Source: a virus
Direction: 5' to 3' (one strand)
Length of the DNA: 20,159 nucleotides
Virus record (IMG/VR): IMGVR_UViG_3300045941_000360
Coordinates: 1 to 20,159 of that record
Shown here: in pieces, positions 1 to 19,750 of the stretch
Layout of the letters: every line of letters begins with the position of its first letter
Position numbering within the stretch: position 1 is the first letter of the stretch
Notes under the pieces: generated by a model
The model's input: only the letters and a program-made list of their open reading frames with translations
Told to the model about the DNA's origin: nothing
Databases searched by the model: none
Position numbers and translations under genes: made by a program

Positions 1-1
1 A

Positions 2-160: not shown

Positions 161-161
161 C

Positions 162-991: not shown

Positions 992-994
992 CCC

Positions 995-7306: not shown

Positions 7307-7473
7307 GCGACAAGCCGAACGGAACGAATGGGACGATGACGGAACAGGAAGTGGAATACGTGGCGCAAGTTCTGGCGCAACGTCCGCTCGCCGAATCGTT
7401 GGCGCTCTGGTTGAAATTGACAGGCCAGGAAATCGTGAAGGCGGGACCGCCCGCGCCGCCGCCCGCCGGGTGA
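7303..7473 (+). CDS. Small phage protein of unknown function (56 aa)
   Basis: ATG 7303 overlaps the TGA of the fibre gene (ATGA), and the frame runs 56 residues to TGA 7471-7473. The sequence has a polar N-terminus, an amphipathic helical middle (MTEQEVEYVAQVLAQRPLAE, then SLALWLKLTG) and a Pro/Ala-rich end (GPPAPPPAG). There is no signal peptide or membrane segment. I do not recognise the family. Tight coupling to the fibre gene at one end and four bases to the lipoprotein gene at the other support its being a real gene. A tail-fibre accessory role is possible but only by position. Confidence 0.6.
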   Translation: MSDKPNGTNGTMTEQEVEYVAQVLAQRPLAESLALWLKLTGQEIVKAGPPAPPPAG

Positions 7474-7477
7474 ACCA

Positions 7478-7675
7478 ATGTGGTTCCGTTACGTGGTCGC
7501 GCTCGGGCTCGTGCTGATCGGGATCGCGTTCGTCCTGATGATCCTCGCCGGCTGCAGCGGGTTCAAGGTCGAGGGCGCCTGCACCTACGAGCGCACCGTC
7601 ACGACGAGCTACCAGTGCCAGCCCGACGGCCAGCTCGAGCACTACCGCGTCGCGCCCGGCGGGCCGGAGCCGTGA
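7478..7675 (+). CDS. Small phage lipoprotein (65 aa)
   Basis: It begins MWFRYVVALGLVLIGIAFVL and continues to a lipobox LAGC with the lipidated cysteine at C26; the mature part is about 40 residues with two further cysteines (C35, C47). This predicts export and lipid anchoring. It is the last gene of the tail operon, four bases after the 56-residue gene. Phage lipoproteins in this place can block superinfection by the same receptor or take part in lysis as an Rz1-like spanin. No embedding Rz frame or proline-rich Rz1 body is seen, so the role is open. The stop at 7673-7675 is followed by the gene-free attP region. Confidence 0.65.
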   Translation: MWFRYVVALGLVLIGIAFVLMILAGCSGFKVEGACTYERTVTTSYQCQPDGQLEHYRVAPGGPEP

Positions 7676-7702
7676 GGGTTACACGTGGAACGATCGGCCC
7701 TC

Positions 7703-7727
7703 TGGCATAATGGCCGGCATAATGGCC
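7703..7727 (+). repeat. Left arm-type integrase repeats (two copies)
   Basis: Two direct copies of GGCATAATGGCC start 12 bases apart (7704 and 7716). The same 8-mer GGCATAAT recurs twice at 7866-7888 in the same orientation on the other side of the core. Paired direct repeats on both sides of an attP core are typical arm-type sites bound by the N-terminal domain of tyrosine integrases. Confidence 0.72.
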
Positions 7728-7798
7728 AAAAAAACCCGGTTATCGGGGGTAGTCGAACATCCCTGTTTATCTATGAAGCGATAACCCGGAAATATCGC

Positions 7799-7811
7799 TA
7801 AGTCCTTGATT
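7799..7811 (-). promoter_or_regulatory. IHF binding site, left of core
   Basis: On the minus strand the 13 bases fit the IHF consensus WATCAANNNNTTR at every defined position (on the plus strand TAA, four bases, TTGATT). It is the mirror partner of the site at 7844-7856. IHF bends attP DNA so that arm-bound integrase reaches the core. Confidence 0.7.
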
Positions 7812-7817
7812 TAATGA

Positions 7818-7840
7818 TTCGATTCCAATCGCGCCTACCA
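7818..7840 (+). other. attP core matching a tRNA 3' end
   Basis: The 23 bases fit the tRNA plan exactly: a T-loop TTCGATT (7818-7824), five bases of T-stem (CCAAT), seven of acceptor stem (CGCGCCT), discriminator A and CCA (7838-7840). The bases upstream do not complete the T-stem (ATTGG would be needed), so only the 3' end is present. This is the usual situation when a phage integrates into a tRNA gene and restores its end. An inverted repeat CGATT-CC-AATCG (7820-7831) may mark the core-type integrase sites. I cannot name the tRNA; the 5' end of the host gene should read AGGCGCG. Confidence 0.65.
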
Positions 7841-7843
7841 TAA

Positions 7844-7856
7844 AATCAATGACTTA
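7844..7856 (+). promoter_or_regulatory. IHF binding site, right of core (H'-like)
   Basis: The 13 bases AATCAATGACTTA fit WATCAANNNNTTR at every defined position. The site lies between the core and the right arm repeats, where lambda has its H' site. Confidence 0.72.
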
Positions 7857-7864
7857 CGAGCGTC

Positions 7865-7888
7865 TGGCATAATACTGGCATAATGGCC
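7865..7888 (+). repeat. Right arm-type integrase repeats (two copies)
   Basis: Two direct copies of TGGCATAAT start 11 bases apart (7865 and 7876); the second is extended to TGGCATAATGGCC like the left-arm copies. They correspond to P'-arm sites in lambda. Confidence 0.72.
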
Positions 7889-7892
7889 CGCG

Positions 7893-7918
7893 AAAAAAAG
7901 CCCGGAGCGCGTCCGGGC
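7893..7918 (-). terminator. Rho-independent terminator of the leftward operon
   Basis: Read on the minus strand this is a perfect 7-bp stem (7912-7918 pairing with 7900-7906) with a 5-base loop, followed directly by seven U residues (7893-7899). It lies 20 bases past the stop of the last leftward gene and keeps that transcription out of attP. For rightward transcription the hairpin has no U-tract, so it is not an obvious terminator for the tail operon. Confidence 0.85.
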
Positions 7919-7938
7919 GGTGCGGGTAGACCTACCCC

Positions 7939-8193
7939 TCAACCGTTGCCTTCCAACGCGTCCTGCGCGTCCTCCCGCGGCTCCCTGGCCCATCCGTCGT
8001 AGGGTTCGGTGATCCACCAATCGTCCGCGTTCTTGGCCATCCCGGCTTTCAACATCTCAGCCGGTGTCATGCAACGCCGGTCTTTCCCAAACTCACCAGT
8101 GCGGTGCATGTCGAAGGCGGTATCGGAGTTGAAATACTCGTTACAGCCCGAGCACTGGCAGCGGCTGTCGGTCAGCTTGCGAGTGGGTCTCAT
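7939..8193 (-). CDS. Small zinc-finger-like phage protein (84 aa)
   Basis: An 84-residue protein with an early Cys/His cluster: CQCSGCNEYFNSDTAFDMHR, followed by RRC. The C-x-x-C, His and Cys spacing suggests one zinc site in a small finger. The rest contains MTPAEMLKAGMAKNADDWW and a polar, acidic end. This resembles short conserved phage proteins found near integrase modules, but I do not know a function. It is the last gene of the leftward operon, 18 bases after the preceding gene, and ends 20 bases before the terminator. The start site is not fully certain because an AGG directly abuts the ATG at 8191-8193. Confidence 0.65.
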   Translation of the reverse strand: MRPTRKLTDSRCQCSGCNEYFNSDTAFDMHRTGEFGKDRRCMTPAEMLKAGMAKNADDWWITEPYDGWAREPREDAQDALEGNG

Positions 8194-8211
8194 CCTTCAG
8201 CGCGCCGCGCG

Positions 8212-8601
8212 TCAGGGCTTCTTCGGCGGCACGAATTGCACGTCTTGGAATGGGTGATGCTCGATGCCGAGCCCCTGCTTGTCGAGCAGCTCGGCCATCA
8301 TATCCATGTGCTTGAACAGCATCGCAGCGTAATCGCGCGTGTTGAAGATCGCGCCGACCGTCTGTTCGACGACGTAATGCTGTCCAGTGGCGCTCTGGAA
8401 GTCGGCGCGCTTGGCGCGTACGCGTGCCGCCCCGGTTTCCGGGTCGAAATGCAGGCAAGACCAGCTTGACTCGAAGTGGTAGGCCCAGTGCGTGCGCGTC
8501 GTGCTACATACGCTTATGCAGCCCCATAGGTCATACTCGGTGAGGATCGCGCGTATCTTGTCGATCGCTTCCAGTGTTTTCGGGTCTTTCAGCTCACTCA
8601 T
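8212..8601 (-). CDS. Phage protein of unknown function (129 aa)
   Basis: The start chosen is ATG 8599-8601, with an AAGGA site seven bases upstream; a TTG six bases earlier is less likely. The protein has an N-terminal helix (DPKTLEAIDKIRAILTEYD), then a beta-rich part with several Cys and Trp residues (WGCISVCSTTRTHWAYHFES), a basic segment, and a second long helix (YAAMLFKHMDMMAELLDKQG). No catalytic motif or membrane segment is evident and I do not recognise the family. It begins just after the integrase stop (8604-8606), so it is co-transcribed with int. Confidence 0.6.
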   Translation of the reverse strand: MSELKDPKTLEAIDKIRAILTEYDLWGCISVCSTTRTHWAYHFESSWSCLHFDPETGAARVRAKRADFQSATGQHYVVEQTVGAIFNTRDYAAMLFKHMDMMAELLDKQGLGIEHHPFQDVQFVPPKKP

Positions 8602-8603
8602 CG

Positions 8604-9872
8604 TCAATCCTTCGGTCCCTTCAACGCGCCGCGGACGAGTTTCAACTTCGCATCTGAGCGCTTCGCGCCAGGCTTGGCCGGCCGCCCGGCCGGCACCGGC
8701 ACGTACTCACGCACCGGTACGGCTCCGTGCACGTCCTCCAGTTTCGCCAGCTCGCGCCCGCGATCGGCGCCGTCGATCCACTTGGCGTAGGTCTCGTACA
8801 GCATCTTGGTGTTCTTGTGCCCGAGCTGGCGCGCGATGTAGGCGGGATTCACCCCGCCCATCAGCGCGAGCGTCGCGTACGTGTGGCGCGTCTGGTAGGG
8901 CACGCGCGCGCGGATTCCGACCCGCTCGAAGACGCGATCCCAGTACTCCTCGCGCTGGCTCCGGCCGTCATACCAGGGGTTCCCCGTCTGCGGGTTCTCG
9001 AAGATGTGGCCGTGGGCGCTCTTCCCGGTCAGCACGCGCTGGCGCTCGAGCACGGCGCGCGCCCTGGTGGTCAACTCGAGATCCCGGACCTCGTAGGTCT
9101 TCGTGGGCTTGACCCGCCCCCGGAAGCTCCGCGCGCGCTCAACGCGCACCGAGCCGCGACGCGCCTCGTAGTCGCGCCACAGAAGCGCCACCTCTTCCTC
9201 CGGGCGCAGCCCCGTCAGGAAGGCGAACTCGAAGTAGTTCACGATGTTTGGCTGATAGTGCTCGGCCAGATCGGCCAGGATGATCTCGCGCTCCTCGCCG
9301 TCCAACGGATCGGGCGGCGCCTTCTGCACGCGCCCGGCCTTGATGCCATCGGACGGATCGGATACTCCGCAGTCCTTGGATGCCATTTCGAAAAGCCCCC
9401 GTAACGGTATCAGTCGATTGTTCATCATGCGGTTTGACGGCCATGGATGACGCCCCACGAGCGCGGCCAGCTGGCTGTGGCGCACGCGCGTGACCTCCGC
9501 ATCTCCAAGGAGAAATCTCGTCCGCCCCGGATCAAGCGGCTGCGCATACCAGAAATCGAGCGCCCCCTGGTACTGGTAGCGCGTGGCTTCCGCGAGCGCG
9601 CCCTTGGAGGCGTGCCAGAGCTCCCCGTAGTGGCGCACCGTGCGCTCGCCGCTTGCACCTGCGTTCGGCGAATCGGGGAAGAACTCGTGATAGGAAAACG
9701 TGCCCGACTCGAGCGCGCGCAGCAACTGCGCAGCCACTCGACGCGCCGCGCGCTGCTCGGGCGGGGTGATGCCGCCTGGCAAGGACTCGAAGCGTTGAAC
9801 CCCCTCCCACGTAAAGATCAGGCGAATGCTTTTTGCACGGACATCTACCTTGACCGTTCTTCGACTACCCAT
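8604..9872 (-). CDS. int: Tyrosine-family integrase
   Basis: A 422-residue site-specific recombinase. The N-terminus (residues 1-60; IRLIFTWEGVQRFESLPGG) resembles the arm-binding DUF3596 domain, followed by a SAM-like core-binding domain (about 75-170). In the catalytic domain R223 (TGLRPEEEV), K258 (PTKTYEVRD), R329 (YQTRHTYATL), H352 (RQLGHKN) and Y362 (ETYAKWI) form the expected set. The first His of the HxxR box is Tyr (Y326), which is common in this subgroup. The C-terminal 45 residues are a Lys/Arg/Pro-rich tail. It joins attP (7701-7888) to a host tRNA site. A GGAAGGGG ribosome site precedes ATG 9872, and the start overlaps the excisionase gene by 28 bases. Confidence 0.95.
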   Translation of the reverse strand: MGSRRTVKVDVRAKSIRLIFTWEGVQRFESLPGGITPPEQRAARRVAAQLLRALESGTFSYHEFFPDSPNAGASGERTVRHYGELWHASKGALAEATRYQYQGALDFWYAQPLDPGRTRFLLGDAEVTRVRHSQLAALVGRHPWPSNRMMNNRLIPLRGLFEMASKDCGVSDPSDGIKAGRVQKAPPDPLDGEEREIILADLAEHYQPNIVNYFEFAFLTGLRPEEEVALLWRDYEARRGSVRVERARSFRGRVKPTKTYEVRDLELTTRARAVLERQRVLTGKSAHGHIFENPQTGNPWYDGRSQREEYWDRVFERVGIRARVPYQTRHTYATLALMGGVNPAYIARQLGHKNTKMLYETYAKWIDGADRGRELAKLEDVHGAVPVREYVPVPAGRPAKPGAKRSDAKLKLVRGALKGPKD

Positions 9873-10141
9873 TTAGTGACCCCTTCCAGGTCTATCAGAA
9901 TTCTCTCATCGGGCGCGCGCACCCATTCGCGGCCCTCGCGCCACACCCCCTCGTGGATCTTGCGGCGTATTGCCGCTTCCGTGTATCCGGTGACGGCCGC
10001 GGCCAGGTGGACCAGCACGTAGCGTACCGGGTTCAGGTGCACGTGCGTCACCGCTTCGGGCGCCGGGGCGCCGCGCTGGACGAAGGTCTGCAGAACCGCC
10101 AGAGCCTTGTCGGCTGCTTCTGCGTCTTTCCAGATTGCCAT
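9845..10141 (-). CDS. xis: Excisionase (DUF1233-like)
   Basis: A 98-residue protein. The C-terminal half, GYTEAAIRRKIHEGVWREGR and then RAPDERILIDLEGVTKWV, is the winged-helix pattern of DUF1233/YdaQ-type putative excisionases (an entry helix, the VWREG turn, and a beta hairpin with RAPDG-like text). Excisionases bind attP/attR and steer the integrase toward excision. The first 40 residues are less typical, so an internal start is possible, but an AAGGAG site nine bases before ATG 10141 supports the long form. It is directly followed by int with a 28-base overlap, the usual xis-int pair. Confidence 0.82.
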   Translation of the reverse strand: MAIWKDAEAADKALAVLQTFVQRGAPAPEAVTHVHLNPVRYVLVHLAAAVTGYTEAAIRRKIHEGVWREGREWVRAPDERILIDLEGVTKWVVEERSR

Positions 10142-10154
10142 GATCTCGCGCTCC

Positions 10155-11114
10155 TTACGCCGCTTCCTGATCTTCCTTCAGCGCCTTCAGCGTTTGCTCG
10201 AGGTCCGTGTACTCGGCCGGCGTCAGGTCGCCGAAGTGCTCCTTCCCGTAGGCCTTCTTGCAGTAGTCCTTCACCTTCTCGCGGTCGAGCTGGTATTCCT
10301 TCACCAGCGCCTCCAGGCGCTTTTTCTGCGGCTCGCTGATGGCGCCGCGCTCGGCCGCCTTCTCCGCGGCGGCCATGCGCTTGATGGCCGCGCGCGCCTT
10401 GCTGTCGAGGAGCGACCAGAGCGCGACCTTCTCGTCGTTGTCGAAGCCGGAGGTCTCGCAGAGCGCGTAGGCGTCCATCGGGCGGGACTCGGACAAGCAC
10501 GTGCGGATTCCCGCCGCGGTCGCCATGACTACTTCCTGGCGCTCGGCGGTCAGTGCATCCAGGGCGCCGGTCGTGGGCGTGATCGGGGCGGACGGCAACG
10601 GCACCTCCGGGGTGATGTCGTGCTCGACGCTGGTGAAATCCCGCACTTCCTCCGGCGTGTAGACACCGCTGCAAACCGACGGGAAGCAGGTTCGCACACC
10701 CTCGCTGATGACGCGCGAGCGCAGCATCGCGCGCGGGTAGGTTTTCCAGTTTTCCTTGTTGGCGAGGTTGGCGCGGCGCGCCATGTCGATCGTCCACTCC
10801 ACTGTCACCGGGGTCGGGCTCTTCGGATGGCTGAACTGGCCGCACACCTTGGTATCGGTGTAGGCGGTCCACTTGACGATGCCCCCGGAATCCTGGAAGC
10901 GCCCGAGGATCGCGTCGGCCTTCAGCGCCGGCCGGCCCTGGATGATGTGGTAGTCGGAAGCGACGCTTCCAGGGTGCCGGCCCTCGGCCTGCGCGACGAT
11001 CATCAACGCGAGCGCCTGGTCGGCGGTCTTCATGCCGAAGAGCTGCGACTTGGCGATCGCCTCTGCCATGCGCTGCATGTCCTGCAGCGGGACTAGCGAC
11101 GTACTGGTGTTCAT
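10155..11114 (-). CDS. recT: RecT-family single-strand annealing protein
   Basis: A 319-residue protein. The RecT core lies at about 20-175 and contains PGSVASDYHIIQGRPALKAD, the FSHPKSPTPVTVEWTIDMAR block and NWKTYPRAMLRSRVISEGVR, all characteristic of this recombinase family. The C-terminal third is helical and charged (AAAEKAAERGAISEPQKKRL) and may be a partner-binding region. RecT anneals complementary strands after 5'-end resection. No RecE- or YqaJ-type exonuclease lies next to it; the nearest nuclease candidate is the VRR-NUC gene in the rightward operon. ATG 11114 overlaps the preceding stop (ATGA) and follows an AGAGGAA site; an ATG five codons upstream is less likely. Confidence 0.88.
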   Translation of the reverse strand: MNTSTSLVPLQDMQRMAEAIAKSQLFGMKTADQALALMIVAQAEGRHPGSVASDYHIIQGRPALKADAILGRFQDSGGIVKWTAYTDTKVCGQFSHPKSPTPVTVEWTIDMARRANLANKENWKTYPRAMLRSRVISEGVRTCFPSVCSGVYTPEEVRDFTSVEHDITPEVPLPSAPITPTTGALDALTAERQEVVMATAAGIRTCLSESRPMDAYALCETSGFDNDEKVALWSLLDSKARAAIKRMAAAEKAAERGAISEPQKKRLEALVKEYQLDREKVKDYCKKAYGKEHFGDLTPAEYTDLEQTLKALKEDQEAA

Positions 11115-11314
11115 TTCCTCTCCGTCCATTCTCTGGGCACGCTCATGTTCAACTCGCGCTCGAGCGTGCGGGCGAACTCAGCCCACGCCACCATCTGCTC
11201 GCGGATCTGTATCGTTGCCCGCACCAGGCCGTTACGGTAGGCGAGATCGGCAGGATCGAGGACGATCGCCGGTAGCTGCGCGACGAAGTTGTCGGTTCTA
11301 GGCGTTTTCGACAT
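11111..11314 (-). CDS. Small phage protein of unknown function (67 aa)
   Basis: The frame is open well upstream, but the protein-like part begins at ATG 11314, seven bases after an AGGAG site, giving 67 residues: MSKTPRTDNFVAQLPAIVLD and on to LERELNMSVPREWTERK. The segment LAYRNGLVRATIQIREQMVA WAEFARTLE is amphipathic helix, similar to short phage proteins with one coiled helix of Leu/Arg/Glu repeats. No enzymatic motif is visible. It overlaps the HNH-like gene upstream by 17 bases and RecT downstream by 4, so the three are probably translationally coupled. A role with RecT is possible only by neighbourhood. Confidence 0.65.
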   Translation of the reverse strand: MSKTPRTDNFVAQLPAIVLDPADLAYRNGLVRATIQIREQMVAWAEFARTLERELNMSVPREWTERK

Positions 11315-11834
11315 GGCGATGCTCCTTCGCATGGTGAACAGCACAAAGCCACCGCACCTCAAGCGGTCGCGAATAGTCTTCGTGATGTGCGTGGGCGAGC
11401 GCACCGCATACTTCGCACGGTTGCCGGTGCAATTTCCCGCGTGCGATATGGGTTCGCACCAGATTGCGGGCCAGCACTTTCGTCTTGTCCCGCGCCTTGT
11501 CGTAAGTGCGTCGCTTCTCGTAATTGCGCTTCGCGGAGTCCCGATCCTGCTGCAACCTCTTTGCATGCTTTTCCGGGTCGGCGAGAATCGCCGCGTTGTG
11601 GGCTTTCTGCCACGCGAGAACCTCGTCGCGATGCTTCCGCTTGTATTCTCTACTCGCGGCAAGTCGTCGTTCATGCGCCTCAGCTTTTTCCGTGTCGCTC
11701 TTGGCCGGGCTCCGGCGTCGCTGCTTAGGCAGCACCTCATCGGTGACGTCTTTGATTCTCACGAGGGTGTCCGGCGCCGGGCGCCGGCTGCGCTGATCCT
11801 TTAGTTTCTGAACAAGGTTACGGTTGCGTTTCAT
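11298..11834 (-). CDS. HNH-like zinc-binding phage protein
   Basis: A 178-residue protein. The first 125 residues are very basic and helical (REYKRKHRDEVLAWQKAHN, KRNYEKRRTYDKARDK). The last 50 form a treble-clef/HNH-like zinc fold: C140-x-x-C143, HHEDY at 150-154, WLC at 162-164, and H167-H168. This C-terminal signature recurs in phage proteins of the HNH type, but the usual fourth Cys is replaced by His (CAVH). It could be a nicking nuclease or a DNA-binding protein; catalysis is not assured. ATG 11834 overlaps the upstream stop (ATGA) and has an AGGAG five bases before it; a GTG at 11840 would fall against the AGGAG and is rejected. Confidence 0.72.
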   Translation of the reverse strand: MKRNRNLVQKLKDQRSRRPAPDTLVRIKDVTDEVLPKQRRRSPAKSDTEKAEAHERRLAASREYKRKHRDEVLAWQKAHNAAILADPEKHAKRLQQDRDSAKRNYEKRRTYDKARDKTKVLARNLVRTHIARGKLHRQPCEVCGALAHAHHEDYSRPLEVRWLCAVHHAKEHRHVENA

Positions 11835-11983
11835 GGGCACTCCTTTGCGAGGCGTTCGGCCACGTAGTTGCGTACGGAAAGCCGCTCCTCTTCGGCCAGG
11901 TCGATGGCGCCGGCGGCGCCGAAGGCGCCGAGGATCAGCACGAGGTAGATCACGATGAGCGGCCAGGAAGGGTAATTGGTCAT
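11831..11983 (-). CDS. Small single-span membrane protein (50 aa)
   Basis: ATG 11983 opens a 50-residue frame with an AAGG site seven bases before it, five bases after the upstream gene. Residues 6-26 (SWPLIVIYLVLILGAFGAAGA) are one clear membrane segment; the remainder is a charged, helical tail (DLAEEERLSVRNYVAERLAK) that probably lies in the cytoplasm or on the membrane face. The family is unknown. Small membrane proteins in early left operons often affect superinfection or host membrane functions; here nothing in the sequence decides it. The frame extends 16 codons further upstream, but into the preceding gene. Confidence 0.65.
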   Translation of the reverse strand: MTNYPSWPLIVIYLVLILGAFGAAGAIDLAEEERLSVRNYVAERLAKECP

Positions 11984-11988
11984 CGCCT

Positions 11989-13236
11989 TTACCACTGTCC
12001 TTCGACCATAGGAACTGAAGGGATCATGCATTCTGCGTCCGGGTTCTTCTCAAGAAGGCCGGCCAGCATGTTGATCACCTGATATACCCGCTGCAGCCTG
12101 ACGCGTTCCGCCGGTTCGTGCGTGCGCTTCAGGTAGAGTTCAAGCCACTTCGTCGAGAACCGGATCAGGATCGCGCGCGACCCGGGACTGTTGTCGTTGC
12201 GGGTCTGCAGCAGATTGTCGAGGTCGCGGAAGTACCAGACGGCGGTGCAGATCTGGTAGTAGTCGTAGCTGCCTAGCCGGAAGTCGGTGAGGGGCCACAC
12301 GCGCACGCCGTACACCACGATCTCCTGCTGATCGGCCGGCATCGCGCTCAGTGCATCGGTCGCCTTCTTCTCTTCGCTCGCCTTGCGTTTGGCGTCCTCC
12401 TTCTGCTTCCAGTACCGGGACACCACGGCTTCCAACGTTTCCGGCGCGGCCAGGAGCTCCTCGCGATGGGCTACCACTGCCGGCATGATGTGCTCGCGCA
12501 CGTGCTGTCTGGTCTTCGCGGTCGAAAGATCGAAGCGGGCGCAATAGGCCTTCGGTCCCCACGGGAACAGAACGCGAAGCGGGAGGGTCCGAAAGTCGAT
12601 GCTGTTGCGAGTGAGGAGCTTCTCGTCGAGCGCCTGCAGAATCAGGGACCACAGATCCTTACCTCCGCGTTCGCGGATTGCCTTGCCGATTGTGGTTCGT
12701 CCGTGCGTGTTGTCGTACATGGCGAATACTTCGTCCGCTCTCAGAAAACCGTAGAACGGACTGTTGTGCCTGATCGTGACTGACTGATCCTGGTTGTTCG
12801 TTGGCGCACTTTCCGCGGAAGGTTTTTGCTCCGGCGCCGGCTCTGCGGGAGAAATCTCAGCGTTTTCGGAAACGACGTCCGGTTTGGGAAGCTTCCCAAA
12901 CCTCTCTTTGTGTTTGCGCCAGAGTGAATCTGGTTGCAGCTTGTCCTGCTGTTCGATGAGTACTTCCCGAAGCAAGTCAGGACGCTCTGCCATGTTGATG
13001 AGTGACGCGCGATCATTGGCGCCAAGCCTGTCGAGATCGTTCTGCGCGAGCCAGACGGAGAAGTCGCGGTCAGCGGGGAACCGCTCCCTCGCTTCGGCGA
13101 GCGCGACGGCGAGCTCCAGTGTTCCCTCTATCCACTCCTGGTGACCGTGCACGGTGCGCTCGTATGCCGAACGGATGCGATCCGCGAGCACGTTCATCGG
13201 GGTGGGCATCGGTACGACGTTGGTGGTGTCTGTCAC
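11989..13236 (-). CDS. Phage protein of unknown function (415 aa)
   Basis: It starts at GTG 13236 with a GAGGA site eight bases before it, directly after an intrinsic terminator. Residues 15-100 are helical with an acidic pattern (WIEGTLELAVALAEARERFP, DFSVWLAQNDLDRLGANDRA) and resemble the N-terminal region of phage or plasmid DUF3102-like/ParB-associated proteins. A Pro/Glu/Gln-rich linker spans about 115-150. The second part (155-415) is compact, with a charged coiled stretch (KQKEDAKRKASEEKKATDAL) and an aromatic section (DFRLGSYDYYQICTAVWYFR). No catalytic motif or membrane segment is seen. The function is not known. It is one of the longest early left genes and is conserved-looking rather than low-complexity. 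Confidence 0.65.
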   Translation of the reverse strand: MTDTTNVVPMPTPMNVLADRIRSAYERTVHGHQEWIEGTLELAVALAEARERFPADRDFSVWLAQNDLDRLGANDRASLINMAERPDLLREVLIEQQDKLQPDSLWRKHKERFGKLPKPDVVSENAEISPAEPAPEQKPSAESAPTNNQDQSVTIRHNSPFYGFLRADEVFAMYDNTHGRTTIGKAIRERGGKDLWSLILQALDEKLLTRNSIDFRTLPLRVLFPWGPKAYCARFDLSTAKTRQHVREHIMPAVVAHREELLAAPETLEAVVSRYWKQKEDAKRKASEEKKATDALSAMPADQQEIVVYGVRVWPLTDFRLGSYDYYQICTAVWYFRDLDNLLQTRNDNSPGSRAILIRFSTKWLELYLKRTHEPAERVRLQRVYQVINMLAGLLEKNPDAECMIPSVPMVEGQW

Positions 13237-13249
13237 TGTGATATCCTCG

Positions 13250-13278
13250 AAAAAAACGGGCGGGCTGCAGTCCCGCCC
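13250..13278 (-). terminator. Intrinsic terminator inside the early left operon
   Basis: Read on the minus strand: GGGCGGG (13272-13278), a 7-base loop, CCCGCCC (13258-13264), one G, then seven U residues (13250-13256). It begins 13 bases after the stop of the DGQHRL gene and its U-tract ends 13 bases before the GTG of the 415-residue gene. A perfect 7-bp GC-only stem plus U7 should stop most RNA polymerase that has not been modified. Confidence 0.85.
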
Positions 13279-13291
13279 ATAGGGTGCTGCC

Positions 13292-14290
13292 TTACGCCGC
13301 TTCCGAAGTCAGTTCGGCCGGATAGCCAGGCTTCGGAAGCTCTTTCTTGACTGCTGTTTTCAGGGTGCTGGCGCTCATCGCCTTGGTACCCCGCTCCGCG
13401 GCGAGCATCGCGCTCACCACGACACCGAGCTCCTTGAGAGAGCTCAGACGCTCCCGCGCCTGCCAGCGGTTCCGCGCGTTCTTGATGATCTCGGCCGCGA
13501 CGAAGTAGGGCGTCTTCTCGCCATCAGCCGATACGCCGGTCTGGAAGAGCGCGAGCTTCTCGCGCACGCGCTGCTCGGACCATCCGCCCGTCAGCATCAG
13601 GTACGAAACGGTGTGGGCCTGGGTGGCCTTCAGCACCGGATCGGCGATTCCCTGCCGCGAGCCCTCGCCGACGGACATGGCGAGATCGAGCAGGTTGTTG
13701 TTGCTCCTGATCGCGACGGCCACGTCCACTTCCGACTTGAGCGCGGCCGACTTGTCGCCCGTCTTGACGAGATAGGAAGAAGCGAGCCGGATGATGGTCT
13801 GCTTCGCCTTCGCTTCCGTGACGCCTTCGAGCGTGACCGCGTCGGAAGCGTGCCGGACCTTGACATCGTCCACGGTGGCAATCGCGGTACGGGAGATGCC
13901 GTACACCACCACGTTCGAGAGCGCGTAGGAGGCGATCGCGGAACCGCCCAGCCGGTGCTGGCCGTCTTCCAGCGCGCCGTCGCCGTAGAAGCCGATCGTC
14001 GCGTTGTTGAACTGCCACTGGCCTGCGGTCATCCGCCGGGCGTATTCGCGGGAAAGCTCCGGGCGCCACTCCCGGTTGTGGATGTTGCTGCCCAGAAACA
14101 GGATGGCGCTCGCCCCCGGGGTAAGCGTCAGGATCTCTGTTTCCTTCTTGCCGGTCTTCGCCTTCGCCATGATGTCAGCCGCCAGCTTCTTGTCTTCCGC
14201 GGGCGCCTTCTCGGCCACGGCGCGGATCTCGGCAAGAACCTGATCGGCGACGTTCTCTTTGATGCTCACTACCTTGTTACTACTGTCCAT
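13292..14290 (-). CDS. DGQHRL-motif (ParB-like fold) phage protein
   Basis: A 332-residue protein. A GAGGGA site sits three bases before ATG 14290; a TTG at 14353 would run into the PL promoter and is rejected. The core at about residues 60-140 has NREWRPELSREYARRMTAGQ, then an I-x-F-Y-G-D-G strand and EDGQHRLGGSAIASY. This mirrors the ParB/sulfiredoxin fold plan: Arg, helix, G-x-W, strand, [DG]-x-x-HRL-x-A. The remaining 190 residues are helical (EAKAKQTIIRLASSYLVKTG; WQARERLSSLKELGVVVSAM). DGQHR proteins are often DNA-bound regulators or nuclease-like modules; function here is unknown. It is the first gene after PL, the position of lambda N, and like N is followed by a terminator. Confidence 0.7.
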   Translation of the reverse strand: MDSSNKVVSIKENVADQVLAEIRAVAEKAPAEDKKLAADIMAKAKTGKKETEILTLTPGASAILFLGSNIHNREWRPELSREYARRMTAGQWQFNNATIGFYGDGALEDGQHRLGGSAIASYALSNVVVYGISRTAIATVDDVKVRHASDAVTLEGVTEAKAKQTIIRLASSYLVKTGDKSAALKSEVDVAVAIRSNNNLLDLAMSVGEGSRQGIADPVLKATQAHTVSYLMLTGGWSEQRVREKLALFQTGVSADGEKTPYFVAAEIIKNARNRWQARERLSSLKELGVVVSAMLAAERGTKAMSASTLKTAVKKELPKPGYPAELTSEAA

Positions 14291-14308
14291 AAATCCCTCA
14301 TCGTTGAT

Positions 14309-14345
14309 CTCGAATAGCGTCGAGCACGCGTCGGGCGTGATGCCC
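14309..14345 (-). promoter_or_regulatory. Two hairpins in the PL transcript leader
   Basis: With transcription starting near 14346, the 56-nt leader can fold into two small stem-loops. The first is GGGC-ATCAC-GCCC (14342-14345 with 14333-14336), one base from the 5' end. The second is CTCGA-CGCTAT-TCGAG (14320-14324 with 14309-14313). Both stems are perfect but short (4 and 5 bp). A nut/boxB-like or put-like antitermination role is possible because an intrinsic terminator follows the first gene; the hairpins could also be chance. Confidence 0.35.
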
Positions 14346-14352
14346 TGGCGCA

Positions 14353-14381
14353 ACTATAGGTGGCCCTAAGACCATTGTCAA
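14353..14381 (-). promoter_or_regulatory. Promoter PL of the early left operon
   Basis: On the minus strand the -35 is a perfect TTGACA (14376-14381), the spacer is 17 bases, and the -10 is TATAGT (14353-14358). The expected start is A at about 14346. It lies about 60 bases before the first leftward gene. One operator palindrome covers the -10 and spacer, another the upstream edge of the -35, so repressor binding should shut it off. Confidence 0.85.
14357..14368. promoter_or_regulatory. Repressor operator in PL, site 1
   Basis: TAGGTGGCCCTA, a slightly imperfect 12-bp palindrome (TAGG/CCTA outer halves intact). It overlaps the PL -10 box and spacer. Its centre is 25 bases from that of site 2. 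Confidence 0.7.
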
Positions 14382-14395
14382 TAGGCGAGCCTATT
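14380..14395. promoter_or_regulatory. Repressor operator in PL, site 2
   Basis: AATAGGC-GA-GCCTATT, a perfect inverted repeat of 7-base arms with a 2-base centre. It contains the TAGG-n4-CCTA core at 14382-14393 and overlaps the upstream end of the PL -35. Confidence 0.75.
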
Positions 14396-14440
14396 AATAT
14401 CCAGGGCAGGAAGCGTCCACGCTGTAGGGAAAACCCAGGG

Positions 14441-14779
14441 TTACTTGCGGGACTTTTGCTGCGCCAATAGCGAGAGGGCTATGGCGTAAAGATTCGCCTT
14501 GTTGTCCTGGGATAGCGCGCCGAAGGTCTCGCGCAAGGAGTGCTCGAGGGCCTGCGCTGATTCGCCTTTGGGGCGCCGAGCGAGGATCTCAGTCATCGGC
14601 ACGCCTAGAGCGTCGGCAATGGCCTTCAGGGTCGTGTACTTGGGCATTTTTGTATTGCCTTTTTCCAAGTCGTGGACACTGGGCTGTGATAGCCCGGAAC
14701 GTCGGGCGAGCTCGGCCTGGCTCCATTGCTTGGCCTCGCGCAGGCGCACGATGGCCGTGGGATCGTAAGGTAGAAGCAT
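14441..14779 (-). CDS. CI-like repressor, short form without protease domain
   Basis: A 112-residue HTH_3 (Cro/CI family) protein. The helix-turn-helix region is about residues 8-65: IVRLREAKQWSQAELARRSG, LSQPSVHDLEKG, then TTLKAIADALGV. The C-terminal 45 residues are helical (ALEHSLRETFGALSQDNKAN) and may allow dimerisation. There is no S24/LexA-type peptidase domain, so RecA-stimulated self-cleavage is not expected. The start chosen is ATG 14779, six bases after a GATAAT -10 box, which would make the mRNA leaderless like lambda cI from PRM; a longer form from 14824 would translate the promoter and operator DNA. It faces the Cro-like gene and probably binds the TAGGYnnRCCTA palindromes. It could instead be a second Cro-type regulator. 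Confidence 0.82.
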   Translation of the reverse strand: MLLPYDPTAIVRLREAKQWSQAELARRSGLSQPSVHDLEKGNTKMPKYTTLKAIADALGVPMTEILARRPKGESAQALEHSLRETFGALSQDNKANLYAIALSLLAQQKSRK

Positions 14780-14785
14780 AGGACC

Positions 14786-14791
14786 ATTATC
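14786..14791 (-). promoter_or_regulatory. PRM-like -10 box of the repressor gene
   Basis: GATAAT on the minus strand, ending six bases before ATG 14779, so the first base of the message is expected at or next to the start codon. No good -35 is visible at 16-18 bases upstream, as is usual for a promoter needing activation by its own repressor. Confidence 0.6.
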
Positions 14792-14804
14792 CTGCCAGTG
14801 GCAA

Positions 14805-14816
14805 TAGGCAGGACTA
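14805..14816. promoter_or_regulatory. Weak operator-like site upstream of the repressor
   Basis: TAGGCAGGACTA keeps the TAGG half and four of five bases of the other half (ACTA instead of CCTA). It lies just upstream of the repressor -10 and 33 bases (centre to centre) from the strong PR operator; it could be a low-affinity site for autoregulation. Confidence 0.4.
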
Positions 14817-14825
14817 AGCATCATC

Positions 14826-14853
14826 TTGACCGGTCGTTAGGTCGACCTATAAT
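14826..14853 (+). promoter_or_regulatory. Promoter PR of the early right operon
   Basis: TTGACC (14826-14831), a 16-base spacer, then a perfect TATAAT (14848-14853). The Cro-like ATG at 14862 begins eight bases after the -10, so transcripts should have no leader or one or two bases. The palindrome TAGGTCGACCTA occupies the spacer and the first -10 bases. Confidence 0.85.
14838..14849. promoter_or_regulatory. Repressor operator in PR
   Basis: TAGGTCGACCTA is a perfect 12-bp palindrome, the best copy of the operator in the window. It overlaps the PR spacer and the first two bases of the -10. Confidence 0.78.
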
Positions 14854-14861
14854 GGACGACC

Positions 14862-15059
14862 ATGACCTACGATGAATTAATCGACCATTTCGGCAGTCAG
14901 GCGGAAGCCGCGCGGTCCCTCGGCCTCAAGCAACCGTCCATCTCGGAATGGAAAAAACGCGGTATTCCACCTCTACGGCAACTCGACATCCAGCGGCGAA
15001 CCAGAGGGCGCCTGCGGGCCGACACGACGGCACTGGATACGGACAGGGCCTGCGCATGA
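14862..15059 (+). CDS. Cro-like / YdaS-type DNA-binding protein
   Basis: A 65-residue protein. Residues 1-45 follow the Cro/YdaS helix-turn-helix pattern: MTYDELIDHFGSQAEAARSL, then LKQPSISEWKKRGIP, then a basic stretch (RQLDIQRRTRGRLR). The gene is the first of the rightward operon and starts eight bases after the PR -10 box, with no room for a ribosome site, so translation is expected from a leaderless message. By position it is the lytic-side regulator opposing the CI-like repressor. It overlaps the next gene by ATGA (15056-15059). YdaS proteins have also been called antitoxins, but promoter layout favours a Cro role here. Confidence 0.82.
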   Translation: MTYDELIDHFGSQAEAARSLGLKQPSISEWKKRGIPPLRQLDIQRRTRGRLRADTTALDTDRACA

Positions 15060-15259
15060 GCCTCGAGCTCAAGCCCGTTCAAGTACGCCTCTCTACCGAT
15101 GCCTATGAGGCACTGCGCATCGTTGCGGATGCGAGCGACAAGGACATGGGCGAGGTTGCTCGAGAAATGCTGACCGAAGTTCTGCTGGGCAAGGCTCATG
15201 CAATCAAGATATTGGCTGAGCGGCTATCGCGCGCGACAACTTCCGGTAGCAAGCGATAG
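15056..15259 (+). CDS. Ribbon-helix-helix-like small protein (67 aa)
   Basis: ATG 15056 overlaps the Cro-like stop (ATGA). The N-terminal PVQVRLSTDAYEALRIVADA has the beta-strand-then-helix start of Arc/CopG RHH proteins, with a second helix (DMGEVAREMLTEVLLG) and a short third helix. RHH proteins bind operator DNA as dimers. It occupies the place where lambda has cII, so it might help the lysis-lysogeny choice, but no sequence feature of CII is visible. The frame is open upstream of the chosen start, but that part is out-of-frame Cro sequence. Confidence 0.68.
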   Translation: MSLELKPVQVRLSTDAYEALRIVADASDKDMGEVAREMLTEVLLGKAHAIKILAERLSRATTSGSKR

Positions 15260-15268
15260 GTAGTGGTA

Positions 15269-15463
15269 ATGAGCCGTCAGCTCCGGACCCGTGAGCGTCT
15301 GCATCGCGAGCTCCTCGACCGCCTGGCCGGCAAGCGACCGGTACGCGTCATCGTGATCGACACATTCGGCTGCGGGCACGCCAGGGCGTACAACACCTGG
15401 GTCGATGCCAATGGGCAGAGTCGGTGCGTGATGTGCCGGCAGGCGCGGCGGAAGGCGGCATGA
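15269..15463 (+). CDS. Small cysteine-motif phage protein (64 aa)
   Basis: A 64-residue basic protein starting at ATG 15269, ten bases after the preceding gene, with an AGGTAG-type site upstream. The first half is a charged helix (LRTRERLHRELLDRLAGKRP). The second half has C-G-H (residues about 34-36) and C-V-M-C (52-55), a possible zinc-ribbon-like site, and ends in a basic tail (RQARRKAA). The family is unknown; such short Cys-pair proteins are common early phage genes. Its stop overlaps the VRR-NUC start (ATGA at 15460). Confidence 0.62.
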   Translation: MSRQLRTRERLHRELLDRLAGKRPVRVIVIDTFGCGHARAYNTWVDANGQSRCVMCRQARRKAA

Positions 15464-15855
15464 GGCCAACGCTGCACCAGCGCTGGCAGGCCTGCCTCTT
15501 CCGGGCCGATCCGGCGCCGGTCGTGCCGAAGCGATTCAACCGGCACGAGGAGCAGGGCGTGTTGAATGCCGTGTTGAAGGTGCTGAGCTATCACCCGAAC
15601 GTGGCCTGGTGCGCGCGGTTCAACACTGGAGGTTTCAAGGACGCGCGGGGCCAGTTCGTGCGCTTCGGGTTCGCCGGCTGCTCGGATATTTTGGGTCAGA
15701 TGGTCGACGGCCGCTTCCTCGCTCTTGAGGTCAAGGCTGCGAAGGGCCGTCTTACGGATGACCAGGAGTTCTTTATCGCGAAGGTCCGGGCAAATGGCGG
15801 CGTCTCGGGCGTGGCGAGATCGATCGCGGATGCGCTCAAGATCGTGGAGGGTTAG
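15460..15855 (+). CDS. VRR-NUC domain nuclease
   Basis: A 131-residue protein from ATG 15460. The VRR-NUC/PD-(D/E)XK pattern is clear: EE near residues 31-32, FNTGGFKDARGQFVRFGFAG, SDILG with D76, LALEVKAAKGRL with E90 and K92, then Q102 in TDDQEFF. Stand-alone VRR-NUC proteins of phages cleave branched DNA, for example Holliday junction-like structures, and may stand in for a resolvase or exonuclease. The neighbours are replication genes. It could provide the nuclease partner that RecT lacks next to it, but that is only inference. The next gene starts directly after its stop (TAGATG). Confidence 0.87.
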   Translation: MRPTLHQRWQACLFRADPAPVVPKRFNRHEEQGVLNAVLKVLSYHPNVAWCARFNTGGFKDARGQFVRFGFAGCSDILGQMVDGRFLALEVKAAKGRLTDDQEFFIAKVRANGGVSGVARSIADALKIVEG

Positions 15856-16509
15856 ATGGACGTCGAGTTACCAGAATTCGCAGTCGTCCCGACCAAGCCC
15901 TGCGCGTGCGGCTGCACCACGTTCTGCAACTTCTTCCAGGTCGGCCCCAATATCGGCGGCAAGTGCCGCGACTGCCTGAAGGAAAAGCGCTGGTTCAGCC
16001 GCTTCGAACTGGGCCTTTCCAGGACTGAACGCCGGCGCAAGGGATCGGTCTCGCGAAGCGAGATGCTTGCGCGCTGGGGCCATCGCTGCGCGTGGTGCGG
16101 CATCAGTGCGCATGCGCTCAAGGACTATGGCGAGGAGCTCGTGGACGGCCACATAGTCCCCTATCACACACTGCACAGTCTGCCGGATATCCGCAATCAC
16201 CCAGCGAACATCGTCCCGAGCTGCCACGCCTGCAACGACTTCGCGCACAAGATCGGCAATTCGGAGAGACTCCTGGACCTTTCCATACTGCTACACGCTG
16301 CGGTTGCCTATGCCGCGGGCGTACTGGGGGAACACGAGGATGAGCACGGCGGAGAAACTGACGACGACCCCGGTGCAGTTCGCCCTGAGATACGCCGCCC
16401 TGGGTTGGTCAGTATTCCCATGCCGCGAGAACGACAAGCGACCCTTGGTGGAGCGGGGACTTCACGCAGCGACGACGGATGGGGAGATGATCCAGAAGCT
16501 GTGGCGTGA
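15856..16509 (+). CDS. HNH endonuclease, zinc-ribbon type, long overlap with the next gene
   Basis: A 217-residue protein. Residues 16-40 have a Cys cluster (CACGCTTFC, CRDC) like a zinc ribbon. The HNH region is 78-127: C78-x-x-C81, DGHI with H99, N118, C123-x-x-C126 and N127. HNH proteins beside phage replication genes are usually nicking endonucleases or homing types. The last 56 residues (about 162-217) are unlike a folded tail and are read in another frame inside the start of the primase-polymerase gene, with 170 bases shared. The likely explanation is that an original stop near 16330-16345 was lost; the functional domain ends before residue 160. Confidence 0.8.
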   Translation: MDVELPEFAVVPTKPCACGCTTFCNFFQVGPNIGGKCRDCLKEKRWFSRFELGLSRTERRRKGSVSRSEMLARWGHRCAWCGISAHALKDYGEELVDGHIVPYHTLHSLPDIRNHPANIVPSCHACNDFAHKIGNSERLLDLSILLHAAVAYAAGVLGEHEDEHGGETDDDPGAVRPEIRRPGLVSIPMPRERQATLGGAGTSRSDDGWGDDPEAVA

Positions 16510-18031
16510 GAACCCGCGCGCCAATATCGGCGTGCCTTGCGGGGCCCATTTCTGGGTGCTCGACATCGATCCGCGTCACGGCGGCCACGAGGCGCTCGCG
16601 GCGCTCGAGGATGCGCACGGCGAGATCCCTGAAACGCTGACGGCAAAGACGCCATCGGGTGGCGTTCACTACTACTTCCACCCATCGCCAGATGCGCGCA
16701 ACAGTGCCGGCAAGGTCGGGCCGGGGATCGATGTTCGCGGCCATGGCGGCTATGTCTGCGTTGAGGGCTCGCGCGTCAACGGCTCGGGCTATTCGTTCCA
16801 GGACTGGGACCCGCTCACCGATGGCGTGCCGCAGATCAGCGTGGCACCCAAGTGGCTCACTGACCGGGCATTCGGCGCCGGGCGTCCGAAGAAAGACACC
16901 CCTGACGCAGCGGGTGGCGTAGTCGAGGGGCGCCGCAACGATTTCCTGTCCCGGGAGGCGGGCAAGCTTCGGCGTACGGGGCAGAGCGCTGCGGTGATCG
17001 AGGCGGCGCTGCAGAAAATTAACCTGGAACGGTGCAGCCCGCCGCTCGCCGAGCGCGAGGTTGCCAATATCGCGAAATCGATCGGGCGCTACGAGCTGCC
17101 GGCCGATGAGTTCGCCGCAGTCCGTACGGCGAGCACGATCATGGCGGCGCCGGTTACCCCGGCAAAGTACTGTGTCGAGGGTAGAGTCCCGTGCGGTCTC
17201 GTCATCATCGGCGGCAGGCCCAAGGCGAGAAAATCCTGGTATGCGCTGCAGCTCGCCATTGCGAAAGCGGCTGGCGGTAGGTTCATGCACATGATGGTAC
17301 CGCCATGCCGCGTGCTGTACATTGCGCTCGAAGACAACGACCGGCGCATGCGGCAACGGCTCGAGTTCTTTGGGCTGCAACCTGGGCAGGCGCCCGATAA
17401 CCTGCACCTGGTGTATGAGTGGCCCAGCGGACTCGAGGGCGTGGAAAAGTTAAACCGCTGGATGGACCAATACCCGGACACCGGCCTCGTCATCGTGGAT
17501 GTCTTGCAGCGCTTCCGCGGCGCGCGCGACCCAAAGGTATCGGCCTATGACGGGGACTACCAGACGATGGGGCTATTGCATGGCGTCACCCAACGCCATG
17601 ACGGCATGACACTGCTGGTCGTGCACCATGTGCGCAAGGGCGTGGTGGAGGACCCGGTCGAGGCCCTGAACGGCACCTTCGCCATCGCCGGGGCTGCGGA
17701 TGCCTACATCATTCTGCGAAAGGGCAGCGACAAGGATCAATGGATCGCCCACGTCGACGGCCGGGACTGGGCCTCGTGGGACCACGACTTCCTGTGGGAG
17801 TTCGTGGCGCAGGAAGGCTGGCGCCAGGTCGGGCTCTCAGAGGGCGTCTCGCTCACCCACACACAGCAGGCCATCGTACAGTCGGCCAGGGACGAGGGGT
17901 TCTTGACGCCCACCACGCTCGCCAAGCTGCGCGTCATCAGCAAGCCGGCTGCGCATGAGGCGCTGCAGGCAATCGTCGGCAAGGGCGCAATGCGCGTCTA
18001 CGCCGGCAAGTACTACCCGAACGGAGACTAA
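16340..18031 (+). CDS. Primase-polymerase/helicase replication protein
   Basis: A 563-residue protein from ATG 16340. Residues 10-175 form a Prim-Pol domain: YAALGWSVFPCRENDKRP, the catalytic DID at 75-77 and GGVHYYF at 107-113. A PriCT-like helical section covers about 196-252 (RRNDFLSREAGKLRRTGQSA). Residues 280-470 are an AAA_25/RepA-like ATPase: the Walker A-like GRPKARKS at 292-299 (R where most have G before K), Walker B LVIVDV at 383-388, and VVHHVRKG with two His. The C-terminus (505-563) looks like a winged helix. It should prime and unwind phage DNA in the cell. The iteron region starts 60 bases after the stop, so it may be its origin. It resembles P4-alpha-type fused proteins in logic but not order. 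Confidence 0.88.
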   Translation: MSTAEKLTTTPVQFALRYAALGWSVFPCRENDKRPLVERGLHAATTDGEMIQKLWRENPRANIGVPCGAHFWVLDIDPRHGGHEALAALEDAHGEIPETLTAKTPSGGVHYYFHPSPDARNSAGKVGPGIDVRGHGGYVCVEGSRVNGSGYSFQDWDPLTDGVPQISVAPKWLTDRAFGAGRPKKDTPDAAGGVVEGRRNDFLSREAGKLRRTGQSAAVIEAALQKINLERCSPPLAEREVANIAKSIGRYELPADEFAAVRTASTIMAAPVTPAKYCVEGRVPCGLVIIGGRPKARKSWYALQLAIAKAAGGRFMHMMVPPCRVLYIALEDNDRRMRQRLEFFGLQPGQAPDNLHLVYEWPSGLEGVEKLNRWMDQYPDTGLVIVDVLQRFRGARDPKVSAYDGDYQTMGLLHGVTQRHDGMTLLVVHHVRKGVVEDPVEALNGTFAIAGAADAYIILRKGSDKDQWIAHVDGRDWASWDHDFLWEFVAQEGWRQVGLSEGVSLTHTQQAIVQSARDEGFLTPTTLAKLRVISKPAAHEALQAIVGKGAMRVYAGKYYPNGD

Positions 18032-18090
18032 ACCGGAGCCTCAACCCGACGGATTCGTAAGGTGGGACCTTTGATGCGTCAGCCTTCCGA

Positions 18091-18200
18091 CCCTAACGGT
18101 TAGGGTATACCGACCCTAACGAAAATAGCCCTAAAACGGCCCCTTTTGAGTATGTACACACAACTACCCTAACTGTTAGGGACGTTAGGGTTGGTTAGGG
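18091..18200. repeat. CCCTAAC iteron cluster, candidate replication origin
   Basis: Seven exact copies of CCCTAAC or its complement GTTAGGG occur in 110 bases: 18091, 18099, 18114, 18167, 18175, 18184 and 18194; CCCTAAA at 18129 is an eighth with one change. Four of them form two perfect inverted pairs with a 1-base centre (18091-18105 and 18167-18181). The stretch 18120-18165 between them is AT-richer than its surroundings. It lies in the 214-base gap after the primase-helicase gene. Such clustering beside a replication gene is typical of an origin; an alternative is an operator region for the following genes. No other gene is seen in 18032-18245. Confidence 0.6.
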
Positions 18201-18245
18201 TATGTGTTGGCTAAGAGGCAGCGAATTGCTCAAAGAGTACGCAAC

Positions 18246-18344
18246 ATGAAGCACGACGACGAGGACGACAACACGCCATTCATCGTCCTGGCGGCGATCG
18301 TGGTCATCGTCTCCGCGTTCGTGCTGGCGTGGGTGCTCGCGTGA
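18246..18344 (+). CDS. Tiny single-span membrane protein (32 aa)
   Basis: ATG 18246 opens 32 residues: an acidic start ([10 protein letters not shown]) followed by a hydrophobic segment [20 protein letters not shown] covering the rest. This is an acidic N-terminus plus one membrane helix. The stop TGA overlaps the GTG of the methyltransferase (GTGA at 18341-18344), which supports translation. Its function is unknown; by size it is similar to small phage membrane proteins that alter host membrane complexes. Confidence 0.55.
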
Positions 18345-19058
18345 GAGTCGAGCGCATCGGCGAGGCGACGTTATACCTGGGCGACTGTCTGGAGATTCTG
18401 CCGACGCTCGGCAAGGTCGATGCAGTGATTACCGACCCGCCGTATGGGATTGCGTTTTCGCACCACGGTCAAGACGTGAAAGGCATTGGTGGCGGCAAGT
18501 ATAAAACTGCCTTTGCTGGCCATAAAGTCATCGGTGACGAGAAGCCCTTCGACCCTTCCCCGTGGCTGGACTTTCCCAAGGTAATTCTGTGGGGCGCGAA
18601 CCACTACGGCAGCAAGCTACCGGACGTCGATAAGTGGCTCGTCTGGGACAAGCGGGAGGCCGAGTCATCCCTGTCGTTTGCGGATTGTGAACTCGCATGG
18701 ACGAAACCTTCCAGGCCAAGCGCGCATCTTCCGCCACTACTGGAACGGCATGCTCAAGGCGTCAGAGCGCGGCGAGGCTCGGACCCATCCCACACAGAAG
18801 CCAATAGCCCTAATGGCGTGGTGCATGACGCAGGCGGCCTTGGAACCATACGAGGTATGGCTTGACCCCTACATGGGGACCGGAGGCGCAGGCGTAGCTG
18901 CTACGCAAGCCGGACAGCCCTTTGTCGGCATCGAGATCTATGGGCCTTATTTCGACATCGCCTGCGAGCGGATCGAGAACGCCTACCGGCAGCAGAAGCT
19001 ATTCCCTGAACCCGTGCGCGACGTATACGCGCAATCTACGCTGGACTACGGCACATGA
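18341..19058 (+). pseudogene. DNA methyltransferase (N6-A/N4-C), interrupted by a 1-base frameshift
   Basis: The N-terminal part from GTG 18341 reads [20 protein letters not shown] and has DPPY at residues 32-35 (motif IV), then [20 protein letters not shown]. After 18703 the family text continues in the next frame: [30 protein letters not shown] and motif I as DPYMGTGGAGVAATQ, ending at 19058. The order IV then I is that of beta-class enzymes. Removing one A from the run at 18704-18706 restores a continuous protein of about 238 residues, normal for this phage family; as read, the first frame stops at 18865. It would protect phage DNA from host restriction. No cognate nuclease lies beside it. 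Whether the shift is a mutation, an assembly error or a programmed +1 slip is undecided. Confidence 0.85.
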
Positions 19059-19398: not shown

Positions 19399-19401
19399 GC
19401 C

Positions 19402-19749: not shown

Positions 19750-19750
19750 C

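Follow-up and report, generated by a model that had tools for sequence, protein, structure and literature searches.

Organization of the early left operon

The 20,159 bases analysed here (the window) form an IMG/VR virus record and are contained at 100% identity in the 66.5-kb contig IMGVR_UViG_3300045944_000276. The comparison was made in three pieces (window positions 1-9749, 1750-19749 and 19750-20159) that together span the whole window, which is therefore part of the phage represented by that contig. A DNA search of the phage collection gave no near match to the whole window and no distant one to positions 11900-14900. The tail region of the window (5-964 and 1507-6059; L009 1-5567) has a second copy in the parent contig that is 81-83% identical. 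The features of the early left operon and its control region, from right to left, are as follows.

Right of the repressor gene: short cro-like ORF, named from its sequence and place
14838..14849, no strand: third operator-like palindrome, exact match, at the rightward promoter before the cro-like gene
14441..14824, minus strand: CI-type repressor gene, 127 aa (HTH_3, Pfam 4e-15)
14382..14393, no strand: operator-like palindrome TAGGN4CCTA, exact match, just before the PL -35
14353..14381, minus strand: PL, putative early leftward promoter, TTGACA-17-TATAGT, 11/12 consensus
14357..14368, no strand: second operator-like palindrome, exact match, reaching into the PL -10; its spacing is fixed by the search pattern
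13292..14290, minus strand: gene 1, predicted ParB-like phage protein, 332 aa from ATG 14290 or 353 aa from an upstream TTG
13299..13340, minus strand: 10-bp perfect inverted repeat at the 3' end of gene 1, 22 nt between arms 13340-13331 and 13308-13299
13250..13280, minus strand: intrinsic-type terminator, 7 G-C pairs, 7-nt loop, U7
13244..13248, minus strand: GAGGA, the ribosome site for gene 2, 1 nt past the U-run and inside the 13 bases 13249-13237
11989..13236, minus strand: gene 2, 415 aa, no family, starting at GTG 13236
10155..11129, minus strand: recT (phrog_561, E 5e-30; PF03837)
9845..10141, minus strand: xis, excisionase (phrog_9668, E 2e-12)
8604..9872, minus strand: tyrosine integrase, int (phrog_1, E 3e-41; PF00589)
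7893..7918, minus strand: second compact terminator-like site, 20 nt past the stop of an 84-aa ORF

The left operon likely ends at the terminator-like site at 7893..7918. Before recT there is a 67-aa ORF (MSKTPRTDNF..., 11111-11314), and by eye a similar ORF occupies the same place in a related phage (L006).

On a sigma-70 weight score PL reaches 16.8, the top minus-strand promoter score of the window, the next being 11.8. The palindrome TAGGN4CCTA occurs three times exactly and five times with one mismatch, a count that 11 of 100 shuffles reach, so the case for operators rests on the place of the palindromes. The third of them lies where a plus-strand promoter-like site (14826-14853) overlaps it, and CI would be expected to bind at all three. 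A search with the pattern TAGGN4CCTATTGACAN7TAGGN4CCTA (22 fixed bases) found the PL module in 49 stretches of viral contigs, the window's phage counted, and in seven stretches of cellular genomes (Acinetobacter, Stenotrophomonas, Zoogloea, Castellaniella, Nitrosomonas, a gammaproteobacterium and a Phycisphaerales bin). In 22 of the PL-module loci, tblastn matches the window's cro-like protein to DNA upstream of PL. Judged by its sequence, PL is a widespread repressor-type promoter.

The terminator and the stop codon of gene 1

In minus-strand orientation the terminator is formed by GGGCGGG (13278-13272) and CCCGCCC (13264-13258) enclosing the loop ACTGCAG (13271-13265), with G at 13257 and T7 at 13256-13250 directly after the stem. 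Two further pairs, U13279-G13257 and A13280-U13256, lengthen the stem to 9 pairs. A G+C-rich stem leading directly into a U-run, as in an intrinsic terminator, is thereby found at 13250..13280, and the hairpin would be expected to stop transcription in vivo. The stop codon of gene 1 (TAA, 13294-13292) is separated from the stem by a 13-nt spacer. On the other side the U-run is followed by CGAGGATATCACA and then by the GTG at 13236 that opens the 415-aa ORF, the U7 leading to both ribosome site and GTG within 22 bases. A bidirectional terminator was ruled out, as the plus-strand side has no U-run. These features agree with the original prediction, whose perfect 7-bp GC stem with U7 is matched base for base at 13278-13250 and whose ribosome site of the 415-residue gene, placed in the 13 bases after the hairpin, is the GAGGA at 13248-13244. 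Its 'second early left gene' is the 415-aa gene, second after PL, and PHROGs matches put recT, xis and int beyond the hairpin as it had proposed.

The hairpin alone folds with -17.1 kcal/mol, equalled by 1 of 200 shuffles. Folded with its flanks the region is ordinary for its composition (z -0.8), with three bases of the ribosome site weakly paired to the CCU before the stem. Under a strict rule (perfect stem of at least 7 bp with at least 6 G/C, loop of 3-8, T6 starting 0-2 bases after the stem) a stem of this grade with a near U-run never appeared when the 20-kb window was dinucleotide-shuffled 400 times and both strands were scanned. A looser rule, admitting imperfect hairpins that reach -14.9 kcal/mol and have U6 behind them, gave 7 in 40 shuffles, and a simple scan for terminator-like sites returned 10 where 12.5 are expected, with no excess. 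It is therefore the grade and place of the terminator that are significant and not the number of such sites. A scan of the window against Rfam gave no known RNA family at gathering score.

The inverted repeat at 13299..13340 stops 4 nt short of the gene 1 stop codon. It co-folds with the terminator hairpin without competition, and on the plus strand it is followed by UCUUUCUU. It might slow the ribosome near the stop codon, or it could be a chance repeat.

No promoter is recognizable between the terminator and gene 2. The best sigma-70 score for starts within 13150-13450 is 4.1, compared with 16.8 for PL; a promoter serving gene 2 after the terminator was ruled out on this score, as had been anticipated ('no promoter fits between'). 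From PL to the end of int the best candidate other than PL scores 8.3 and lies at 12053-12023. Since no recognizable promoter lies between the terminator and gene 2, expression of gene 2, recT, xis and int seems to require transcripts that read through it. PL, gene 1 and the terminator do make up a complete unit, and a full terminator might close this self-contained unit and leave the later genes to weak internal promoters, of which the site at 12053-12023 is a candidate. However, that candidate is situated where gene 2 ends and so is unable to serve this gene, the GTG at 13236 is only 14 nt past the end of the U-run, and gene 2 is still linked to gene 1 in a distant phage (see below). A full terminator of this kind is very unlikely.

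The short distance between stop codon and stem bears on how readthrough could occur. According to Li et al. (2015; PMC4824070), the terminator tR2 in E. coli is almost fully repressed at short stop-codon distances. Two spacer series gave efficiencies of ~0.12 (17 bp) and ~0.8 (18 bp), and past 30 the efficiency was ~0.9; the repression is gone once upstream translation is removed, and most stop-to-terminator distances given there are <50 bp. Translation coupling would require the stem to follow a stop codon at <~27-30 nt, and the gene 1 stop lies 13 nt away. A coupled ribosome at a stop codon within ~27 nt of the stem should block the hairpin, and by the rule of Li et al. a 13-nt spacer implies that the ribosomes on gene 1 should open the terminator to a partial or large extent, the rule being that of E. 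coli, which may not hold in the phage's host. Readthrough would on this reasoning be partial and set by translation. The spacer is not in itself unusual, as the site at the end of the operon has one of 20 nt. The window resembles the translation-coupled terminators described in that source (the tR2 constructs, and the pyrBI attenuator as cited there) in having its stem within ~27 nt of the upstream stop. It differs from them in that the upstream ORF is a 332-codon phage gene and not a leader peptide or reporter.

The same anatomy would suit a constitutively leaky terminator, at which a fixed fraction of transcripts passes regardless of translation or phage proteins and the ratio of gene 1 to the rest is static. 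There would be no regulator to assume, and in an archaeon internal termination is reported to set the expression ratios of genes within operons (PMC10450193). The stem of 7 G-C pairs with U7 is nevertheless of strong grade, and the 13-nt spacer predicts, from the tR2 data in PMC4824070, dependence on translation in E. coli. A constant leak is thus an improbable explanation.

A two-gene module with an intergenic hairpin

Gene 1 belongs to phrog_5931 (E 4e-29), for which no function is named. Among seven sequences its family has 19 invariant columns, and the motif DGQHRL is invariant in all seven. No Pfam match was obtained. The AlphaFold model has a pLDDT of 89 and gave no match in the PDB at E 0.001, sulfiredoxin appearing only at E 4.9; in BFVD it matches a phage protein with a ParB-like nuclease domain (E 9e-7). 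The protein is probably ParB-like, a description that follows the annotation of its relatives. A terminator-like site was found no more than 260 nt past the stop in 6 of 85 gene 1-like loci, some of which have little downstream DNA, and the terminator as a constant companion of such genes was ruled out.

Gene 2 gave no family match, and PADLOC showed no defence link for the pair of genes. Assignment of a fold by structure was abandoned, the model being too weak (pLDDT 58) and the PDB giving no match at E 0.001. In viral contigs its relatives are confined to the window's phage and the phage of L087, L168 and L169. None was found in phages or plasmids (the plasmids queried with the window protein only), none was confirmed in genome contigs, and none occurs in 398 genomes from the phylum of genome G004, although the same query does match the L168 and L169 records.

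Among the best 80 of at least 488 confirmed gene 1 relatives from a profile scan, L087 is the one contig with a nearly full-length relative (38% in the best segment). A gene 2 relative follows it after 63 nt, with 28.5% identity over 414 positions (E 5e-45), and the DNA of L169 is identical to that of L087 at the gene pair. The interval between the two genes holds a hairpin with a perfect 12-bp stem, longer with a bulge, that folds with -29 kcal/mol (equalled by 0 of 200 shuffles) and begins 19 nt from the stop of the gene 1 relative. This hairpin has no U-run; hairpins with U-runs are present elsewhere in the L087 phage. The pair stands there behind a terminase-looking ORF, recognized by eye, and another ORF, and so appears to travel as a unit. 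The RecT of L006 is 81% identical to that of the window over residues 175-321, and no match was found to phrog_5931 in its 56.6-kb record or to the 415-aa protein in the 13.3-kb locus searched; the pair therefore looks like an optional insert. Gene 1 and gene 2 form a module that is also present in the distant L087 phage.

As the L087 hairpin has no U-run, the feature shared by the two phages may be a hairpin and not a terminator. The hairpin might then be mainly a feature of the mRNA, protecting a 3' end, marking a processing site or acting as a barrier to ribosomes between the genes, and its presence at the same place in L087 is consistent with this. The stem in the window, however, is followed by U7, which a terminator needs and these other roles do not, and such a purely mRNA role is extremely improbable.

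Antitermination, and the terminator as a possible ribosome-gated element

The early left operon of phage lambda has the order PL-N-tL1 and is subject to N/nut antitermination. The window is similar in having a repressor-type PL, one gene and an intrinsic-type terminator, with the early-left recombination genes, xis and int past it. Unlike lambda, its first gene is ParB-like, its leader has no boxA above chance, and its terminator stands 13 nt past a stop codon and adjoins the next ribosome site. In a lambda-type scheme the terminator would be near-complete until an early phage protein or a leader RNA makes RNA polymerase resistant, delaying gene 2, recT, xis and int. The position of the site right after the first PL gene fits such a scheme, and N-like early antitermination with nutL sites is reported from phages outside the lambdoid group too (PMC11893012).

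The window's own phage offers little that matches it. In the first 400 nt of the PL leader the best boxA scores 9/12, a level that 12 of 100 shuffles also attain. With up to 3 mismatches allowed, the two strands of the window contain 34 boxA-like sites, against 23.6 expected (2 of 100 shuffles have as many); all of them have at least 2 mismatches, the PL leader contains none, and three on the minus strand are inside gene 1 (13540, 13912 and 14005, 3 mismatches each). This excess was set aside as not specific. The 66.5-kb parent contig has no match to PF06530 or PF03589 and thus showed no Q-type or Antiterm protein, though short N-type proteins may escape these searches. In antitermination by put-type RNA, as in HK022, two stem-loops form in the leader immediately behind the early promoter. 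Here the leader (14347-14280) folds no better than shuffles (z 0.25) and has one GGGC/GCCC hairpin with the loop AUCAC. A further point against the lambda-type scheme is that L087 has the pair and a hairpin between its genes in a different setting, the genes before it being, as judged by eye, no immunity region. A short N-type protein or an RNA element of unknown type may still be present in the window's phage.

Some other phages with the same PL do show such a system. Of 49 distinct PL units, L065 being merged with L034, nine with <1 kb downstream were excluded and the remaining 40 were examined under the strict rule for terminators. It identified a site in five of them (L020, L034, L046, L058 and L049, the window's own phage), whereas the opposite strand of these 40 stretches, taken as a control, gave 1. 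Inspection by eye leaves compact hairpins in L034, L049 and L058 only. The terminator as a constant companion of the PL module was thus ruled out. A perfect boxA is found in 3 of 47 distinct PL leaders of at least 100 nt (L034, L058 and L044). L034, L058 and L065 have GCTCTTTAACAA 13 nt past the PL module and, like the window, a strong terminator directly before a ribosome site behind the same PL and operator module, here the AGGAGG and ATG of a gene for a 75-aa hydrophobic protein. An SSB-like ORF follows the 75-aa gene in L034 and L065. L044 has boxA, yet no terminator-like site in the 3.5 kb searched.

The terminator is kept in seven loci with the 75-aa gene (L074-L080, of which three lie on the contigs of L034, L058 and L065), and the sequence upstream differs among most of them. 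Four of its 11 pairs are changed on both sides, as in 3 of 500 shuffles, and 92% of cells are paired compared with 88% in shuffles, a level that 1 of 500 shuffles attains; pair types are no more numerous than in shuffles. A boxA matching at 11 or 12 of 12 positions lies upstream in six of the seven (at most 4 of 100 shuffles per locus), L075 being without one, and 0.9-2 kb of variable DNA stand between boxA and terminator. The nearest upstream ORF of at least 30 aa is separated from the stem by 19-319 nt; the gap is no longer than 27 nt in only two loci, where the ORF is short (45 aa in L075, 35 aa in L078). No Q-type or Antiterm protein was found in the L034, L058 and L065 records. With boxA in six of the seven loci and a kept, covarying terminator, these phages likely have a boxA antitermination system of lambda-like logic. 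They differ from the window both in this boxA and in their next gene, the 75-aa hydrophobic protein.

Other features were seen in the PL leaders and their surroundings. Leaders of low G+C, Acinetobacter type (L022, L039, L042, L059, L060 and L068) have a hairpin GCACACCG..CGATGTGC or GCCCC..GGGGC, and several of them also a distant inverted repeat, TTATCTC/GAGATAA, extending to where the first gene starts. In many phages a CCANCGC-like stretch is seen by eye ~9-15 bases past the PL module, close to where the transcript should begin, and the L023 leader holds a tRNA-like sequence ~180-245 nt past PL, also noted by eye. In L034, positions 6324-6398 and 9437-9622 match the Rfam families Burkholderiales-2 (on the strand opposite the PL leader) and RT-15.

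The boxA and covarying terminator against AGGAGG in phages of the same PL make lambda-type control of the window's terminator conceivable, and it is unlikely in view of the leader, the missing protein matches and the ParB-like first gene. The likeness to lambda PL-N drawn in the original prediction therefore appears to hold for the other phages of this PL and is a poorer fit to the window's own. Its general reading, an intrinsic-type terminator in an early-left operon with no promoter past it and with recombination genes dependent on passing transcripts, is borne out as far as sequence analysis goes. Of the two routes that it offered, leaky readthrough fits better than antitermination.

The reading that we tentatively favour, at somewhat less than even probability, is of an operon-internal, intrinsic partial terminator opened mainly by translation of gene 1. 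Transcripts from PL would cross gene 1 and reach the terminator 13 nt past its stop codon; those stopped there would be mRNA for gene 1 only, and those that pass would also give gene 2, recT, xis and int, in smaller amounts. A closely coupled ribosome at the gene 1 stop codon would hinder folding of the hairpin and allow readthrough, whereas with the ribosome lagging or absent the terminator would work. A dedicated antiterminator would not be needed. Gene 1 would be expected in excess and the rest lower, with a larger drop when translation lags. It is possible, if doubtful, that the ParB-like gene, the hairpin and the 415-aa gene are a mobile module that carries its own ribosome-gated terminator and, placed behind PL, subjects transcription of the whole recombination and excision operon to translation of the first gene, the ribosome replacing the boxA antitermination of related phages that share this PL.

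An operon-internal intrinsic-type terminator with seemingly obligatory readthrough is a known kind of control. What appears to be new is where it stands, between the two genes of a module that follows a widespread PL, and that it lacks the recognizable boxA which some phages of the same PL have. If the favoured reading is true, one terminator would gate the left-operon functions past gene 1, including recombination, excision and integration, and its opening would report host translation of phage mRNA. The phages would then offer a natural comparison around one PL module, with boxA and terminator in some and, here, a stop-codon-proximal terminator without recognizable boxA.
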